Below are positions 54,561 through 62,565 of a DNA stretch of 64,000 bases, in pieces; the stretch's first letter is position 1; each line of letters opens with the position of its first letter. The position numbers and the translations under genes are program-made. A model generated the notes under the pieces. That model was not told where the DNA came from, ran no database searches, and saw only the letters and a program-made list of their open reading frames with translations. The stretch comes from Methanospirillum hungatei JF-1 (GTDB lineage Archaea; Halobacteriota; Methanomicrobia; Methanomicrobiales; Methanospirillaceae): NCBI RefSeq assembly GCF_000013445.1, contig NC_007796.1, positions 3,198,936 to 3,262,935 on the forward strand, given 5' to 3'.

Positions 54561-55682
54561 TTATTTTCGGCCTGCTTCAGAGCAGAACCGGTTTTTTATA
54601 TCAGCAGGGGAGAGCGGGATATTGGAGGCTTTACTGTTTCCCGGTCTGATGATCACATGAATAAATGATAATCCTCCCTGAGCTTGTGCATATGCCTGTT
54701 TCAGTTCATCTGGTGTATGCACTTTCCAGGTCCTGTGAAACCCGCTTGCCTGAGCCAGGAGTTCAAGATCAACCGTGCTGTGTGCAGGAGAGCACTGGTT
54801 CCCGGTGCTGCCATACACTCCGTTGTCAAGACCGATGATTATCAGGTTTTTCGGGGATTCGCTGGCAATGACAGGAAGGACAGCTGTTCCAAGAAGACTT
54901 CCGTCCCCATCCAGGACAACCACCCTCCGGTCTGTTCCAAGAGCAATTCCAAATCCGAGAGGACTTGCCTGTGTGTATGAACCAAGCATGTAAAAATTGG
55001 CAGGATTATCTCTTGCATGGTAGAGTTCCTTTGAAGGAACACCGATATTTGAAACGACCAGTTCATCGGTCATCATAGACGCAAGGACACGAATGGCATC
55101 CGCCCGCTGCATGACCGGGTTTGAAAATGCTCCCTGATAGGAGAGATGGACGGTTCGTTCCCGAATCGGGGCCTGATTGATTGGGGGGTGTTCCTCCTCT
55201 CCTTCCCAGACCTTTGGTGAGATGAGAGCAACATGAGGTCTGTTTTCGATCCAGGCATCACTGATGACCGAGGTGATGCGGTCAATATCTTCAGGCTCCC
55301 TGATGATCGTGCAGGGAATGTTGTATAATCTCAGAAGATCCGGGATCTTCTCATTAAACGGGATCTGTGCTGATATTTTCTCCTGATAATATCCCCTCCA
55401 GCTTGCAAGGATTGGCAGGGGAAGCCCGTACAGATAGGGAAGAGTCATCAGGGCATTGAGAGAATTTCCAAGGCCTGAACTCTGCATCTGTAATACGCCA
55501 CGTTTTCCCATCAGGGACAGGCCGGACAGAATCCCGATACCGTCCTCTTCTCTTGAGATGGTGATGTACCGATACTCTTTCTCAAGGATCTCACAGAGAT
55601 CTTTTGTCCGATCGCAGGGAAGCGAGATGATATACTCAATTGCTTCCTTTTTTAATATCCCGGAAACAGTCTGTTCATGCAT
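54561..55682 (-). CDS. comDE: Sulfopyruvate decarboxylase, fused ComDE
   Basis: 373 residues. Decarboxylates sulfopyruvate to sulfoacetaldehyde in coenzyme M synthesis, using thiamine diphosphate. Residues 1-165 are the ComD (alpha) part with the active-site region ISREEDGIGI; 175-373 are ComE (beta) with the TPP motif LDGDGSLLG at about 258 and DNGVYGSTGNQ. In some methanogens ComD and ComE are separate; here they are one chain, as in Methanosarcina. The start overlaps the cysteate synthase gene by 8 bases. Confidence 0.95.
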   Translation of the reverse strand: MHEQTVSGILKKEAIEYIISLPCDRTKDLCEILEKEYRYITISREEDGIGILSGLSLMGKRGVLQMQSSGLGNSLNALMTLPYLYGLPLPILASWRGYYQEKISAQIPFNEKIPDLLRLYNIPCTIIREPEDIDRITSVISDAWIENRPHVALISPKVWEGEEEHPPINQAPIRERTVHLSYQGAFSNPVMQRADAIRVLASMMTDELVVSNIGVPSKELYHARDNPANFYMLGSYTQASPLGFGIALGTDRRVVVLDGDGSLLGTAVLPVIASESPKNLIIIGLDNGVYGSTGNQCSPAHSTVDLELLAQASGFHRTWKVHTPDELKQAYAQAQGGLSFIHVIIRPGNSKASNIPLSPADIKNRFCSEAGRK

Positions 55683-56943
55683 AATATCTCATCCATTCCT
55701 GCACCTTTGCAGATATCTTCTCAAACGGTGTCTCTTTAGATACCATGATATCAGGCGCTTTTACAAACCGGGGGAGATCTTTTCTCCCTCTGGCGTATCC
55801 TCCCCCGGTGATATTAAGGAGGATCTTTTCATCCGGCTTGATTACACCTGAACGAACGGCCCTCATGAGACCTGCCACACACACCGCAGCAGCAGGATCA
55901 GGATCTATTCCTTCAGATGAAGAGAAGAGCTTTCCTGCCTCCTGTGCATCTGCTGATGAAACACCGGCCATAAGTCCGTTTGTTGCGATGAGCGTATCAA
56001 ATACCCCTCCGACAATGCCATAGGGAGGTGTCCGGTTTGTCAGGACATCTGAATATACCTGGGAGATGGCTTGTTCAGCATCAGGCATATCCTCATCTTT
56101 TATCTCCCGTCTCTTCTCCTGCCAGGCTCTGACCATCGGAATGAACGGTTCGTTCTGGAAGAGAAGAAGGCGGGGCATTCTTGTCCCAAACCGGCCGTCT
56201 GCAATAAGCCTGAGCGAGGCCTCATATGCAGCGATGCCCCCGGTACCGCTCCCGACTGCTTGCAGATACCAGTCTGGAAGTGTTCCCATCGCAAGGGTTC
56301 CTGCCAGCATGACGGTGCCCATGCCATCCCGCCTGGCAACATTTTTTGCCCCTCCTTCCGGGAATATGCCAGGGAGGGTGCAGATCCTGCTTCCCAGATT
56401 GATGGCATCCGTATAATCTCCGGAGATGGTGATCAGGAGGGTATCATGTGCTGGTGAGGTCGTGAATAGCCGGTCGCGTGCTGATTCAGGAACGACAATG
56501 ATAACCGGCTGACAGGTCTCTGCCGATACCTCGGCAAAGGCCCGGCCCGTATTCCCGGCAGAGGAAACCTGGATGATTCCCTTCGTCCGCTCGGAAAGCC
56601 GCTGCATCGTCGGGAATGCTTCAAACTCCTTAAATGAACCGCTCACGGCAAAGGCCCCCACTTCAGGCCAGTACCCGGAGAAGACAATCCAGAGATCTGA
56701 AAGACCCAATGCCCGTGCAAGACCTTCGCTTTTGAAACAGACCGGTTCAGCCCGGGTGCGAAGGACTCCTGTGACCGGAAGCCAGTCCATATATTTGAAA
56801 ACCCCCGGTGCATCATGGAGCGTTATCTGACGTGCAGCATATTTCGCCCGAATAAGTCCCTGGCACCCACCCGGACAGGTAAGGGTGTAGGAATCAGAAA
56901 ACTCCTTGTTACATACCGGACAGGTGAGCGTATATCCGGTCAT
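55675..56943 (-). CDS. Cysteate synthase
   Basis: 422 residues, threonine-synthase-like PLP enzyme. Makes L-cysteate from phosphoserine and sulfite, the first step of the phosphoserine route to coenzyme M. The N-terminus has a CPVC...CPGGC metal-type pair; the PLP Lys is in VSGSFKEFEAF (about 105); the SSAGNTGRAFAEV phosphate loop is clear. Directly upstream of comDE in a coupled operon, consistent with cysteate then sulfopyruvate then sulfoacetaldehyde (an aminotransferase would be needed between). Confidence 0.93.
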   Translation of the reverse strand: MTGYTLTCPVCNKEFSDSYTLTCPGGCQGLIRAKYAARQITLHDAPGVFKYMDWLPVTGVLRTRAEPVCFKSEGLARALGLSDLWIVFSGYWPEVGAFAVSGSFKEFEAFPTMQRLSERTKGIIQVSSAGNTGRAFAEVSAETCQPVIIVVPESARDRLFTTSPAHDTLLITISGDYTDAINLGSRICTLPGIFPEGGAKNVARRDGMGTVMLAGTLAMGTLPDWYLQAVGSGTGGIAAYEASLRLIADGRFGTRMPRLLLFQNEPFIPMVRAWQEKRREIKDEDMPDAEQAISQVYSDVLTNRTPPYGIVGGVFDTLIATNGLMAGVSSADAQEAGKLFSSSEGIDPDPAAAVCVAGLMRAVRSGVIKPDEKILLNITGGGYARGRKDLPRFVKAPDIMVSKETPFEKISAKVQEWMRYYA

Positions 56944-58157
56944 ATCTGAAATTCACCCCTGACCAGCATATCCCGCACTCTTCTGCAGAGTATCTCTGCT
57001 CTTCTCCGGTCAGACTGCCGGAGAACAATCGGAATGCCAGCTCCTTCATACGTGATAGAACCAAAATTTCCTTCATATACCGAACCCTTGCAGATCTGCA
57101 CACAGGTTCCGCACACAAAGCACTGCGTCTGATTGATCGTCCCATCTTCCCGGATTGCATCAACTGGACATGCAGTTCTGGCATCACAGGGAGAACAGTG
57201 AAGACATCGCTCCGGATGATACAAGACCCGTGTTGCAGTTCCGGTCCACACCTGTTCATACGAGGCAGTCCCAACCGGCTGACGATCACTGATATCCACA
57301 ACCGGCATGGCGATATCACAATCCAGGACAGAAAGGGAGCTGAGGACATCCGTGTCAACAACCGGAATCGCGGTCCCGATGCTGGTTATGCACTCAGGCC
57401 CTGCAGCGGTACGAAAACCGCCACAAAAATGTGCATCCATCTCCTTCAGGTCGGCATGGACAGAGAGATTGGGCCGATAAGGAGAACTCCGGGTTCCGGT
57501 TCCGATCACCCGGCCACCAGCCCCGTTTAGGATCACTGGAGAACCGGCAGAGAGGAACCGGAGGGTTGGATCATTTTCTACCGGGTTTATCTCCCCGCAT
57601 CCGGAGACGGTAGCCTGTGTGCTGGTGCCCTGAAGTGGCAGGGCAGAAAATATGGTCTTTACCGGTCCGCTGCTCTGATTGATGATTGCAGAGTAGTTCT
57701 TAAACGCACTCCGGGTAGTAAATAACCGGGCAAACGGGAGGTCAGAAAGGGTTACATATGCCTCATAGTCCTTTCCGGCCGAGGTAACTGCGATATGAAT
57801 CTCTTCTCCGGCAATAAGGTCATGGAAGAGATGTCCGCCTCCGTACCGGTCATCTGCATGGGCGGTCCCGAATACCATCAGATCAACAAGTCCCAGTCGT
57901 TCATTCGGGCAGGGGCCGGGAATTGCCGGCACCCCATTCAGTGAGATAGTATCTGCTCGTGAAAAGGTACCGGGAGGAGCAACCGGGACTGACAGGACCG
58001 CATATGTGCCTGACATGACCCCGCAGGTCCCACAGGTGACAACATCAACATCAGAGACGGTATCTCCCTGTGTAATTCTTTTCTTCAACTCCGATGCCGT
58101 CAGGATAACTGCAGAACCATCGGCAAGAGCAGTCCGGATCTCATCGATTGATCTCAT
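56940..58157 (-). CDS. Methanogenesis marker 16 metalloprotein (DUF39/COG1900 with ferredoxin domain)
   Basis: 405 residues. DUF39 region (1-310) with VDVVTCGTCGVMSGTY and conserved Cys near FCGGFRTA, then a ferredoxin-like domain with CLHCSPCDARTACP and CFVCGTCVQICKG. The paralogous DUF39 protein in Methanosarcina turns aspartate semialdehyde plus sulfide into homocysteine. By analogy this one could thiolate sulfoacetaldehyde to coenzyme M, and its position right before cysteate synthase and comDE fits (inference). Overlaps both neighbours by 4 bases. Confidence 0.88.
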   Translation of the reverse strand: MRSIDEIRTALADGSAVILTASELKKRITQGDTVSDVDVVTCGTCGVMSGTYAVLSVPVAPPGTFSRADTISLNGVPAIPGPCPNERLGLVDLMVFGTAHADDRYGGGHLFHDLIAGEEIHIAVTSAGKDYEAYVTLSDLPFARLFTTRSAFKNYSAIINQSSGPVKTIFSALPLQGTSTQATVSGCGEINPVENDPTLRFLSAGSPVILNGAGGRVIGTGTRSSPYRPNLSVHADLKEMDAHFCGGFRTAAGPECITSIGTAIPVVDTDVLSSLSVLDCDIAMPVVDISDRQPVGTASYEQVWTGTATRVLYHPERCLHCSPCDARTACPVDAIREDGTINQTQCFVCGTCVQICKGSVYEGNFGSITYEGAGIPIVLRQSDRRRAEILCRRVRDMLVRGEFQI

Positions 58158-58780
58158 AAAAGCCGTATATCCTCCACCCGTACCTGCAGACCTTCCTTTC
58201 TGGAAAATACCTGGTTCACAACGCCGGTATGAGCAAGATTCATCATGCAGTACGCAGGGAGAAACCGCATTCTCCTCCCAAATACCGGTACCTGGCGGAC
58301 ACTTTCAACCATTCCTTCAAACCCGATGATATGATAGGCCTCAAGATCTTTTACCTCTCTCCCCCGTGAATAGAGAGGGCCTATGACATGGGTTACGATT
58401 ACTCCTGATACTTTATTTGCTGACAATACCAAAAGGACATGCTGGACCGGACATCCGGCTCCCATGGGCCGTCCGGTGAGGATATCACCCGGCTGAATCT
58501 CCCATTTCTCTACGAGATCAGGTCTGAAGGGAAGAAGGATCTTCCTGGCCGAGCATTCCCCAGGTAACGGATGCAGGATAAAATCGAAGGAATCTCCAAG
58601 GATGTCAACAGTCCCCGGAACTGCCTGAGTGCAGGGTATCTCCTGACAGAGGTGCTGAGAAGAGAACGGGCATTCCTCTTTTTTTCTTGTCCCGGACTGA
58701 ATTGCGGCGAAGAACTCATCACAGGTCCCATACCCGCATGCACCACAGTTCCTGCCGGGTAATATCCAGTCCTCTCCCAT
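58154..58780 (-). CDS. 4Fe-4S cluster protein of the coenzyme M operon
   Basis: 208 residues. N-terminal cluster motif NCGACGYGTCDEFF plus Cys in ECPF and IPCTQ; C-terminal beta-rich domain (70-205). The family is methanogen-associated; I do not know a function. Located between the G3E-type GTPase and the marker 16 protein with overlapping ends, so it may deliver electrons or a cluster to the DUF39 enzyme (inference). Confidence 0.75.
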   Translation of the reverse strand: MGEDWILPGRNCGACGYGTCDEFFAAIQSGTRKKEECPFSSQHLCQEIPCTQAVPGTVDILGDSFDFILHPLPGECSARKILLPFRPDLVEKWEIQPGDILTGRPMGAGCPVQHVLLVLSANKVSGVIVTHVIGPLYSRGREVKDLEAYHIIGFEGMVESVRQVPVFGRRMRFLPAYCMMNLAHTGVVNQVFSRKEGLQVRVEDIRLL

Positions 58781-59484
58781 CAGTCACCCCTGAACATAAG
58801 TGCATCTCCGTCAAGTTGACGAAGAACTCCCGTATGATGCTTCCATCCGATGTTCGTCTTTCCAATGCAGACCGTACAGACGCCGAGCGGAGGGATACCC
58901 CGGAGGGTGATAGTGGACAGGTTCTCAATATCCGGTGCTTCCCCTATCGCTCTTGTCAGGTATCGCATACCGGTCCCCTGCACGGCATTGGTCTCAACAA
59001 TATCAATATCTCCCCGAATGCCCCGAATCTTCTCTCTGAACACTTCCTTCTCCGCTTGTGAGACGAGATCGATCCTGGTCACTACCGCGATATCGGCAAG
59101 GGCTATCATGGGTGCCATCTTTGCAGGTGACTGTATGCCGGAGATTGCAGATAAGACAACAATACCAAATGACTGGGTCGTATACGGAGTGCATCGCAGA
59201 CAAAGACCTGCACTCTCAACGATGAGCATATCTGCCCCTTCTTTCCTGGCCCACTCTATAGCCTCATCAAGGATCATGATTCCGGCATGATCTGGACAGA
59301 GATCGCCTGAGTAGACCTTTTTTGCAGGGATATGAAACTCATTCCTGATCTCTTCATCTTCGGTGGCACAGACCACATCTATCTTCAGGTATGCAGATTT
59401 GAGCTCAGGATGGGTCCTGATTATCTGCCTGGTGACTGCAGTCTTTCCAGCCGAGGGAGGGCCGGCGATGATAACGAGTTTCAT
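58780..59484 (-). CDS. HypB/CobW-like G3E GTPase
   Basis: 234 residues. Walker A GPPSAGKTA, a Walker B-like VESAGL, and the base-recognition TRIDLV. Cys pairs in GLCLRCTP and CTVC resemble metal-chaperone sites of G3E GTPases (HypB, UreG, CobW), which insert metals into enzymes. Its start overlaps the ABC-type ATPase gene and its end overlaps the Fe-S protein gene, so it probably helps mature a metalloprotein in this operon. Confidence 0.8.
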   Translation of the reverse strand: MKLVIIAGPPSAGKTAVTRQIIRTHPELKSAYLKIDVVCATEDEEIRNEFHIPAKKVYSGDLCPDHAGIMILDEAIEWARKEGADMLIVESAGLCLRCTPYTTQSFGIVVLSAISGIQSPAKMAPMIALADIAVVTRIDLVSQAEKEVFREKIRGIRGDIDIVETNAVQGTGMRYLTRAIGEAPDIENLSTITLRGIPPLGVCTVCIGKTNIGWKHHTGVLRQLDGDALMFRGD

Positions 59485-60269
59485 TACCAGGATCCCGGAA
59501 CGGGCGTGGTGATCAGTTCACCGGCACGAATCATCTCTCTCATCCGCCCGATAATACCATCCATGTGAAGCATCTGCCTGATTGCATGCTCTTCTGCCCC
59601 GTCAGGCTCGATGACCTTTGATACTGCCCCATCCTGCATAACGATTCGCCGATCTGAAAGCAGGGAGACCAGGGGATCATGGGTGACAAAGAGCAGGGCC
59701 TTGTGATGCTGACGGAGGACTTCTATCACCTTTTCTTTGAATATCCCTGCATTCTCAACCTCATCAAGCAGTATTATCGGTGTGTTTGAGATGAGGATAG
59801 CATCTGCCACCATCAGGGATCGTGTCTGTCCACCAGAAAGGCTGGTCATCCGGACATGGGCGGTGATAGGTTCTCCGGTGAACTGATTTGCAAGATTGAT
59901 GGTCTCCTGAATGCAGGACTCTTTCATATATCCACGGGAGAGGAGATGCATTCGTAAAAAGTCAGAGACACTAAGGTCACACAGGCACCGGGTATTCTGG
60001 GTGATAAGGGCAACCGGTTTTGCTGCCGGGTCACGGACATACCGTTCCGGAGGAAGTTTCCCATTGACCAGGATCTGTCGCCCGGTTACCGTATCCCGGT
60101 TAGCAAATATCTCGATATCGTTGATAAAGGCACTTTTTCCTGACCCGGTCGGACCGACGATGGACAGGGTATCGCCAGGTCTGATGTGTATCTCATCAAA
60201 CGCCTCCTCTATCCCCTTACGGTTCCGTCCAGGTAGTATGGTTATATCCCTGATGGTTTCCTCTGTCAT
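59484..60269 (-). CDS. ABC-type ATPase, first gene of the coenzyme M operon
   Basis: 261 residues from ATG 60269 (a Met 12 codons upstream is less likely). Walker A GPTGSGKSA, signature LSGGQTRSLMVADA, Walker B IILLDEVENAG, His in VTHDPL. No permease is adjacent, so it may be a soluble ATPase acting in protein or cofactor assembly rather than transport. A TATA-like box (TATTATATAA, minus strand, about 60312-60322) lies upstream and would drive the six-gene operon to comDE. Confidence 0.85.
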   Translation of the reverse strand: MTEETIRDITILPGRNRKGIEEAFDEIHIRPGDTLSIVGPTGSGKSAFINDIEIFANRDTVTGRQILVNGKLPPERYVRDPAAKPVALITQNTRCLCDLSVSDFLRMHLLSRGYMKESCIQETINLANQFTGEPITAHVRMTSLSGGQTRSLMVADAILISNTPIILLDEVENAGIFKEKVIEVLRQHHKALLFVTHDPLVSLLSDRRIVMQDGAVSKVIEPDGAEEHAIRQMLHMDGIIGRMREMIRAGELITTPVPGSW

Positions 60270-60427
60270 CCTGAATATATAGTAGGCGAGTCTGGATAAT
60301 AACATTACCCCATTATATAATAAATTAATACAATGAGGGAATAATAATTGAGATAATACAATACTTTAGTACCATATTATCTTCTTCAATTTAGACCGAT
60401 GCCCATAGAGATGTAAAATAGAACTTA

Positions 60428-60615: not shown

Positions 60616-62565
60616 GTGACAACTGGTCAGCAAACCACCCTGAAATTCCGTCAGAAACGAAGACCGCTTGAAACGACCATGCATATCGTATGGTTTATCT
60701 GTGCCATTTCTTCGATCATCGGCATATTTTTCATCCTCATCTTCCTGCTTTATGATGCAGCACCGGCATTTCTAGATATCGGCCTTATTCCATTTCTCAC
60801 CGGGGAACGATGGGATCCGACCAGTATCATGCCAAAGTACGGACTTGTCCCCCTCATCGTCGGGACGCTGCTTGTCACTATGGGAGCAATGGTTTTTGCC
60901 GTTCCTTTCGGTATTGCCTGTGCAATCTTCATCGCTGAACTTGCAAGCCCCCGGATGAGAAATATTCTGAAACCGGCTGTTGAGCTTCTTGCCGGGATTC
61001 CATCTGTGGTTTATGGATTCTTCGGGCTTGCCATCCTCGTGAAATTTTTACAGGATCTCCTTTCGGTCCCGAGCGGAGAGTCGGTCCTTGCCGGATCTAT
61101 ACTTCTTGGTATCATGTCCCTTCCAACCATTATCAGCGTATCAGAGGATGCCATCAGTTCAGTTCCCAGATACCTGAAGGAAGGATCCCTGGCCCTTGGG
61201 GCGACCCACTGGCAGACCATATCACAGGTCATCGTCCCTGCTGCACTGTCAGGTATTACCGCGGCTGTGATTCTTGGAATCGGTCGTGCTGTCGGTGAGA
61301 CGATGGCGGTCATCATGGTTACCGGGAACGCAGCGATCATCCCGTCCCCAATCTGGAATATCCTTTCACCGGTCCGAACCCTGACCGGAACACTGGGGAT
61401 TGAGATGGGAGAGGTTGCGGTCGGATCACTCCATTACCATGCTCTGTTCGGAGTTGCTGTTATTTTACTTCTCATTACACTGATCATCAACCTGACAGCC
61501 CTGACGGTCATGAAACGTCTCAAGAGTTCACAGACAGGAGGATGCTCACGAACAGGAGTATTCTCATGCCTCATGATCACAGACCGGCTGTCCGGGATCA
61601 TACCGTATCTTCCGATTGGAGTGACAGCCATTCTCGGACTATTCCTACTTCTAATCGGATTATGGCAGGGAGCGGCAGGTATTCTGATCCTTTATCTAAT
61701 TGCACGACTGGTGGACCGGTACTGTATCAGGCAGACAGTGCAGAAGATCTGGTTCTCTCTGATCACGATCATGATGGGAATTGTAACCTTTATCCTTATC
61801 TTCATCCTGTATGACATCTTCTCAAACGGTCTTCCTTATGTTACGCTTGATTTCCTGACCGAATCACCGCGAAACCTGGGTCGCGGAGGAGGTATATTTC
61901 CTGCTATTATCGGAACATTCTACCTGGTTATTGGTTCTATTCTCATCGCTCTGCCTCTTGGGATCGGAGCTGCTATTTACCTCGTGGAATATACGAAAGA
62001 GAACATCCTTACCAGGTTTATCAGGACGGCAACAGACCTGCTGAACGGGACTCCTTCTATCGTTTTCGGGCTGTTCGGGTTCACCTTTCTTGTTCTCTTC
62101 CTTGGATTTGGTATATCACTCCTTGCCGGCATGATTACCCTTGCCCTTATGGTCCTCCCAACGGTGATCAGAACGACGGAGGAGGCATTAAAGAGTGTTC
62201 CGGACAGTCTTCGTGAAGGATCGTATGCCCTTGGAGCGACCAGGTGGCAGACGGTCCGGCGGGTTGTCCTCCCCCCGTCGGTCCCCGGTATTATCACCGG
62301 TGCCATCCTCTCTATCGGGCGTGCAGCAGGTGAGACGGCCCCGATTATGTTTACAGCCGTCGTATTCATGCAGCGACGCCTTCCGGATTCGTTTTTTGAT
62401 CCGGTCATGGCTCTCCCCTATCATCTGTTCATTCTGGCAACCAATGTCCCGGGCGCCAGAAATAACCAGTATGCTACGGCAGTCATCCTTCTGATCCTCG
62501 TAATCATGATATATGGAGGAGCGATTCTCATTAGAAATCATTATGATAAAAAAATCAGGTGGTAA
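60616..62565 (+). CDS. Fused PstC-PstA phosphate permease
   Basis: 649 residues. The N-terminal 310 are PstC (six helices, ending LTALTVMKRLK) and the C-terminal 320 are PstA, with its own transport loop (LREGSYALGATRWQTVRRVV) matching that in PstC (LKEGSLALGATHWQT). Normally two proteins form the channel as a heterodimer; here they are one chain, joined by a linker (about 312-330) that still carries an AGGAGG and an ATG out of frame. Starts at GTG 60616 (alternative ATG 60679). PstS is not in the window. Confidence 0.9.
   Translation: MTTGQQTTLKFRQKRRPLETTMHIVWFICAISSIIGIFFILIFLLYDAAPAFLDIGLIPFLTGERWDPTSIMPKYGLVPLIVGTLLVTMGAMVFAVPFGIACAIFIAELASPRMRNILKPAVELLAGIPSVVYGFFGLAILVKFLQDLLSVPSGESVLAGSILLGIMSLPTIISVSEDAISSVPRYLKEGSLALGATHWQTISQVIVPAALSGITAAVILGIGRAVGETMAVIMVTGNAAIIPSPIWNILSPVRTLTGTLGIEMGEVAVGSLHYHALFGVAVILLLITLIINLTALTVMKRLKSSQTGGCSRTGVFSCLMITDRLSGIIPYLPIGVTAILGLFLLLIGLWQGAAGILILYLIARLVDRYCIRQTVQKIWFSLITIMMGIVTFILIFILYDIFSNGLPYVTLDFLTESPRNLGRGGGIFPAIIGTFYLVIGSILIALPLGIGAAIYLVEYTKENILTRFIRTATDLLNGTPSIVFGLFGFTFLVLFLGFGISLLAGMITLALMVLPTVIRTTEEALKSVPDSLREGSYALGATRWQTVRRVVLPPSVPGIITGAILSIGRAAGETAPIMFTAVVFMQRRLPDSFFDPVMALPYHLFILATNVPGARNNQYATAVILLILVIMIYGGAILIRNHYDKKIRW

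Follow-up and report, generated by a model that had tools for sequence, protein, structure and literature searches.

Six minus-strand open reading frames (ORFs) at positions 54561-60269 of a 64,000-nucleotide stretch of Methanospirillum hungatei JF-1 DNA (hereafter the window, part of a genome consisting of a single contig of 3,544,738 bases) form an operon for coenzyme M (CoM) synthesis by the phosphoserine route, their identities being given by our profile searches and their functions by the literature. Linkage and co-inheritance across genomes show that the first three genes, which encode an ABC-type ATPase, a GTPase and an Fe-S protein (hereafter the trio), are a conserved accessory module of the CoM pathway. 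With a probability of roughly 0.45, we propose that the trio is a nucleotide-driven module that would load metal and supply electrons for CoM thiol formation, without being specific to MMP16, the known enzyme of the last step. All biological methane formation depends on CoM, whose sulfur-adding last step is the least understood. As a module that accompanies the pathway in several orders and persists where the known last enzyme has been lost, the trio offers a way to find the electron and sulfur supply and a backup route.

The six ORFs are all open and follow each other in the order ATPase, GTPase, Fe-S protein, MMP16, cysteate synthase (CS) and ComDE, with overlaps of 1 base between ATPase and GTPase (TAATG), 1 between GTPase and Fe-S protein, 4 between Fe-S protein and MMP16, 4 between MMP16 and CS and 8 between CS and ComDE. 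A sequence-only reading of this DNA had described six coupled genes overlapping by 1-8 bases, and both the layout and the gene identities were borne out. From the overlaps, the six genes are probably co-transcribed as one operon. MMP16 (methanogenesis marker 16, COG1900d, ComF; 56940..58157) scored 635 bits against TIGR03287 (cut-off 364) and contains a PF01837 HcyBio domain; its C-terminal ferredoxin-type cysteines, C318 to C356, are invariant in 16 homologues. CS (55675..56943) scored 677 bits against TIGR03844 (cut-off 325), and the sulfopyruvate decarboxylase ComDE (54561..55682) is a true fusion, in which residues 3-159 match the alpha profile TIGR03845 (212 bits) and residues 193-369 the beta profile TIGR03846 (253 bits), both above cut-off. 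By the established steps, CS forms cysteate, a general aminotransferase encoded elsewhere converts it to sulfopyruvate, ComDE yields sulfoacetaldehyde and MMP16 the thiol.

In Chadwick et al. 2025 (PMC12068725), genetic evidence makes MMP16 the primary CoM synthase of Methanosarcina acetivorans, L-aspartate semialdehyde sulfurtransferase (L-ASST) is put forward as a possible backup, and formation of the thiol from sulfoacetaldehyde is said to require sulfur and 2 to 4 electrons. The sequence-only reading was right to call this a CoM operon, and it had the four genes upstream of CS supply or mature the last step; this fails for MMP16, itself the synthase, and stands in so far as the trio is linked to the pathway. 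Elsewhere it counted three unassigned partners, which is the correct number because MMP16 is assigned.

Is the trio inherited together with the CoM genes? We searched for it gene by gene in 119 genomes of the class with at least 90% completeness, among which MMP16 occurs in 70 and CS in 76. Trio and CS were both present in 71 genomes, with 4 carrying the trio only, 5 CS only and 39 neither (Fisher p 2.7e-21); for trio and MMP16 the corresponding counts were 64, 11, 6 and 38 (p 4.6e-15), both p-values ignoring relatedness. A genome with trio remnants only (G064) was scored as trio-negative, G066 carries a broken GTPase and CS, and in G075 CS is lost where a contig ends. Four genomes (G065, G070, G076, G104; loci L196-L199) have MMP16, CS and ComDE but no trio, and five of the six g74 genomes tested lacked the trio, the sixth having a second MMP16 operon. 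The trio is dispensable, being absent from many genomes with MMP16; it is conditionally useful, not essential, and not MMP16-specific. Decayed trio remnants were also seen at two loci (L127, L138) of genomes without CS, consistent with loss alongside CoM synthesis.

Many Methanomicrobiales genera have the gene order of this operon, with identities of about 45-90%, and on account of this recurrence chance juxtaposition of the six genes was rejected. The arrangement trio-MMP16-CS-ComDE occurs in records of Methanocalculus, Methanofollis, Methanocorpusculum, Methanoculleus and Methanomassiliicoccales type; trio-MMP16 with no CS nearby occurs in two Methanosarcina records (L052, L061) and in second MMP16 operons (L217, L219), and in a Methanophagales record a divergent trio adjoins MMP16. 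The L217 and L219 operons, in which a second MMP16 and a close trio come on top of a resident MMP16, look acquired. In genomes from outside the class the close form is rare (5 of 80). A diverged form (GTPase about 39-47% and Fe-S protein 32-38% identical) lies inside CS-ATPase-GTPase-FeS-ComD-ComE operons with MMP16 convergent (L206, L207, L209, L218), and also forms part of CS-ATPase-GTPase-FeS runs (L213, L214, L225). The upstream genes are thus tied to CoM synthesis in many genomes, as the earlier reading had proposed. The result that would have refuted it, a lack of such linkage in other genomes, was sought but did not emerge.

Both the operon and its link with the trio are already published: the legend of Figure 2B in PMC12068725 describes frequent colocalisation of CoM genes with those for an ATPase, a Ni-binding GTPase and a COG2000 Fe-S protein, and gives their role as unknown. 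The same kinds of genes lie beside MMP16 and the sulfoacetaldehyde genes in the published clusters and in the window, where they are directly adjacent. The portion of that text used here is silent on a trio without MMP16, on the CS-trio-ComDE order and on the partner protein described below. New here are the tracking of trio and CS in 119 genomes and the diverged trio inside CS-trio-ComD-ComE operons of other families.

We next consider the trio proteins themselves. The soluble ATPase (59484..60269) matches PF00005 (ABC_tran, E 2.5e-12), and its Walker A, signature (LSGGQTR), DE and H-loop residues are conserved in 61 sequences. The 234-residue GTPase (58780..59484) matches PF02492 (cobW/HypB/UreG; E 1.8e-12, 47.7 bits against a cut-off of 20.7); HypB proper (TIGR00073, 51 bits, cut-off 121) and UreG proper (TIGR00101, 25 bits, cut-off 204) were rejected. 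The best Foldseek matches of its AlphaFold2 model (pLDDT 84) were HypB 2wsm, UreG 4hi0 and HypB 2hf8, with E 3.5e-11 to HypB, and C63-P64-D65-H66 aligns with the CPH motif of UreG. The C63-P-D-H66, C95xxC98 and C203xxC206 motifs are invariant in 93 of 93 homologues. Fold and motifs support a G3E-class (CobW/HypB/UreG) protein of the HypB/UreG metal-delivery kind, in agreement with the earlier suggestion of a cofactor- or metal-assembly factor. Fold, nucleotide site and the CPDH/CPH motif are common to this protein and the nickel-delivery GTPases, whereas identity is about 20%, two CxxC motifs are extra and no hydrogenase or urease genes lie alongside.

The 208-residue Fe-S protein (58154..58780; PF04060, E 5e-12), whose COG2000 name comes from PMC12068725, has an N-terminal four-cysteine [4Fe-4S] domain followed by a beta-rich domain with C110, H114, C178 and H184. 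These four residues and C12, C15, C20 and C37 are kept in 71-72 of 72 close homologues and in 11 of 11 diverged ones (32-38% identity). In the AlphaFold2 model (pLDDT 87) the N-terminus superposes on the Fe-S domain of the CFeSP gamma subunit (9fzy_F) at 0.9 A over 34 columns. This [4Fe-4S] domain is common to CFeSP gamma and RnfB, but the window protein has no corrinoid domain and its remainder is beta-rich; a structure search with the model beyond the N-terminal domain gave no clear match, which is not evidence of a new fold. Together, the conserved motifs and predicted folds suggest a metal-handling GTPase with the Fe-S protein as its natural client.

What happens to the trio when MMP16 is missing? 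In eight genomes of the class (loci L113, L117-L119, L121, L122, L125 and L126) trio-CS-ComDE operons have an empty MMP16 slot, and no MMP16 above the TIGR03287 cut-off was found elsewhere in these genomes. In all eight, an SsuA/NMT1-like protein of about 313 residues (hereafter NMT-like; e.g., L117:6101-7042) is encoded beside the trio, with no evident signal peptide and no adjoining permease. A divergent helix-turn-helix (HTH) gene lies between it and the trio (the HTH gene was not called in L126). The 162-residue HTH protein (L117:7046-7534, and at many Methanoculleus loci) adjoins operons with MMP16 or with the NMT-like gene and is a probable regulator; its gene was not seen beside the operon of the window. 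Close relatives of the NMT-like protein occur in 12 of the 119 genomes, the eight lacking MMP16 and four others. By CS and MMP16 status, the protein is in 8 of 8 genomes with CS and no MMP16 against 3 of 68 with both. In a second operon of G101 (L114), ordered ATPase-GTPase-FeS-NMT-ThiF-MoaD, the NMT-like gene (L114:6650-7600) occupies the MMP16 slot. Because NMT-linked trio copies fall in at least two places of the trio tree, the partner of the trio was probably swapped more than once.

Among the ComDE-positive members of 346 phylum genomes, 32 lack MMP16 and 23 of these encode an NMT-like protein; of the 150 that have MMP16, 22 encode one (p 3.6e-10, uncorrected). The nine genomes with neither protein comprise six that were less than 90% complete and outside the search for methyl-coenzyme M reductase (MCR), two with no MCR detected, and G363, a clear exception. 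Among MMP16-less ComDE genomes that encode MCR or an alkyl-type homologue, 15 of 16, from five families, carry the NMT-like protein; conversely, MCR or an alkyl-type homologue was found in 15 of 25 MMP16-less, NMT-positive ComDE genomes, the ten without being nine of family f9 and G235. CS-ComDE-NMT operons occur at L182, L186, L191, L203 and L204. Four of them (L182:6528-9675, L186:6615-9828, L191:7364-10628, L204:8260-11374) are in genomes without detected MCR, as CoM-pathway-like genes outside methanogenesis. Elsewhere the NMT-like gene is accompanied by MoaD, ThiF, IscS/IscU-like or sulfate-assimilation-like genes, the last two named by eye. Throughout the family, residues H16, C76, H81, E83, H123, D124, N191 and H216 are invariant (one ORF was called in truncated form and does not include H16). 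This signature is not kept in nearby binding proteins with signal peptides; in 3un6, which is the closest solved protein by profile, the His and Glu positions are preserved and Ala stands at the Cys position.

We tentatively suggest, with about one chance in three, that this cytosolic protein is a second, non-orthologous CoM synthase, or its sulfur-inserting part, which would replace MMP16 and in some lineages be served by the trio and a MoaD/ThiF carrier. Against this, the NMT-like protein is also encoded in some genomes without ComDE (including three MCR-positive f9 genomes with neither ComDE nor MMP16), in archaea without MCR and, alongside MMP16, in Methanosarcinaceae; its role could instead be the binding, sensing or buffering of CoM. 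A literature search of the main text of open papers found no alternative CoM synthase. L-ASST was rejected as an explanation of MMP16 loss, since every one of the 119 class genomes, with or without MMP16, has lower-scoring COG1900-type matches that stay under the MMP16 cut-off and are not distinguishing; it is a possible backup. Like MMP16, the L-ASST pair MA1821-MA1822 combines a COG1900 enzyme with a ferredoxin in an aldehyde-to-thiol reaction in the part of PMC12068725 used here, where no ATPase or GTPase partner is described. Partner exchange, with its candidate alternative CoM synthase, is a lead worth following, as it points to a way in which methanogens that lack MMP16 and keep CS and ComDE intact might still make CoM.

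How might the trio act? The module combines a soluble ATPase with a GTPase of the metal-delivery type and a CFeSP-type Fe-S domain, and it follows the pathway, not one terminal enzyme. Metal loading with ATP-driven electron delivery is the most economical reading. The HypB/UreG-like GTPase would pass a metal ion to the Fe-S protein, and perhaps to the terminal protein as well. The ABC-type ATPase may use ATP to push low-potential electrons out of the CFeSP-type [4Fe-4S] centre and into the step that forms the thiol, whether the terminal protein is MMP16 or the NMT-like protein. Several observations weigh against this proposal. MMP16 has ferredoxin motifs of its own, and earlier work cited in PMC12068725 reportedly obtained CoM with M. 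jannaschii MMP16 alone in E. coli, so neither maturation nor electrons would strictly require the trio. Many genomes have MMP16 and no trio; three class genomes (G032, G068, G085) have trio copies with neither CS nor MMP16, which implies that some copies do something else. As the trio is kept without MMP16 and missing in MMP16 genomes, loss of the ATPase or GTPase may well not cause CoM auxotrophy in sulfide-rich medium.

Alternatively, the trio could supply sulfur and not electrons, either sulfite for CS or sulfur in an activated form at the last step. In several genera CS and ComDE directly flank the diverged trio, and regions linked to the trio often contain MoaD/ThiF sulfur carriers, LarE or IscS/IscU-like genes; moreover, the origin of the sulfite that methanogens use for CoM synthesis is not well established. 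However, profile searches found no sulfur-transfer domain in any trio protein, the trio of the ANME-like L064 and of second MMP16 operons accompanies MMP16 with CS not close by, and many CS genomes have no trio; we consider sulfur supply unlikely, at about one chance in five. A dedicated MMP16 maturase assembling a metal or Fe-S centre is somewhat less probable still. Adjacency of trio and MMP16 in Methanomicrobiales, Methanosarcina, Methanomassiliicoccales-type and ANME-1-type records and the trios beside second MMP16 copies would fit it, yet in the eight class genomes that lack MMP16 the trio is intact beside CS-ComDE, it is missing from several genomes with MMP16, and the E. coli result cited above points the same way. 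Because trio and MMP16 each occur in operons that lack the other, we rejected an MMP16-specific maturase as the principal explanation. That the ATPase belongs to a sulfonate or metal importer regulated by the other two proteins is very improbable and was rejected: its ABC_tran domain and the paralogous ATPase-GTPase pairs near metal-siderophore type binding proteins would suit an importer, but no permease or binding-protein gene is among the operon ORFs, and the SsuA-like partner has neither an evident signal peptide nor an adjoining permease.

Several minor observations concern relatives and surroundings of the trio. The paralogous ATPase-GTPase pairs (L128-L145; e.g., L128:7007-9492) have no Fe-S protein and often adjoin a DUF364/DUF4213 putative metal-chelation protein. 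A separate trio lineage with a longer Fe-S protein occurs in Methanoregula-like genomes (L112, L115, L120, L123, L124), among surface-protein-like genes and away from CoM genes. The longest ATPase ORF of the window starts at 60305; we prefer the start at 60269 because homologue alignments mostly begin at residues 9-20 of the long form. A TATA-like element, TTTATTATATAATG (60324-60311, minus strand), is a putative promoter read from the sequence and would put the transcription start between the two ATPase ATGs. On the opposite strand, the operon is flanked by a chemoreceptor gene and a permease-fusion gene. At 60616-62565, one ORF with two BPD_transp_1 permease matches precedes an ABC ATPase ORF and another ORF that is PhoU-like by eye.

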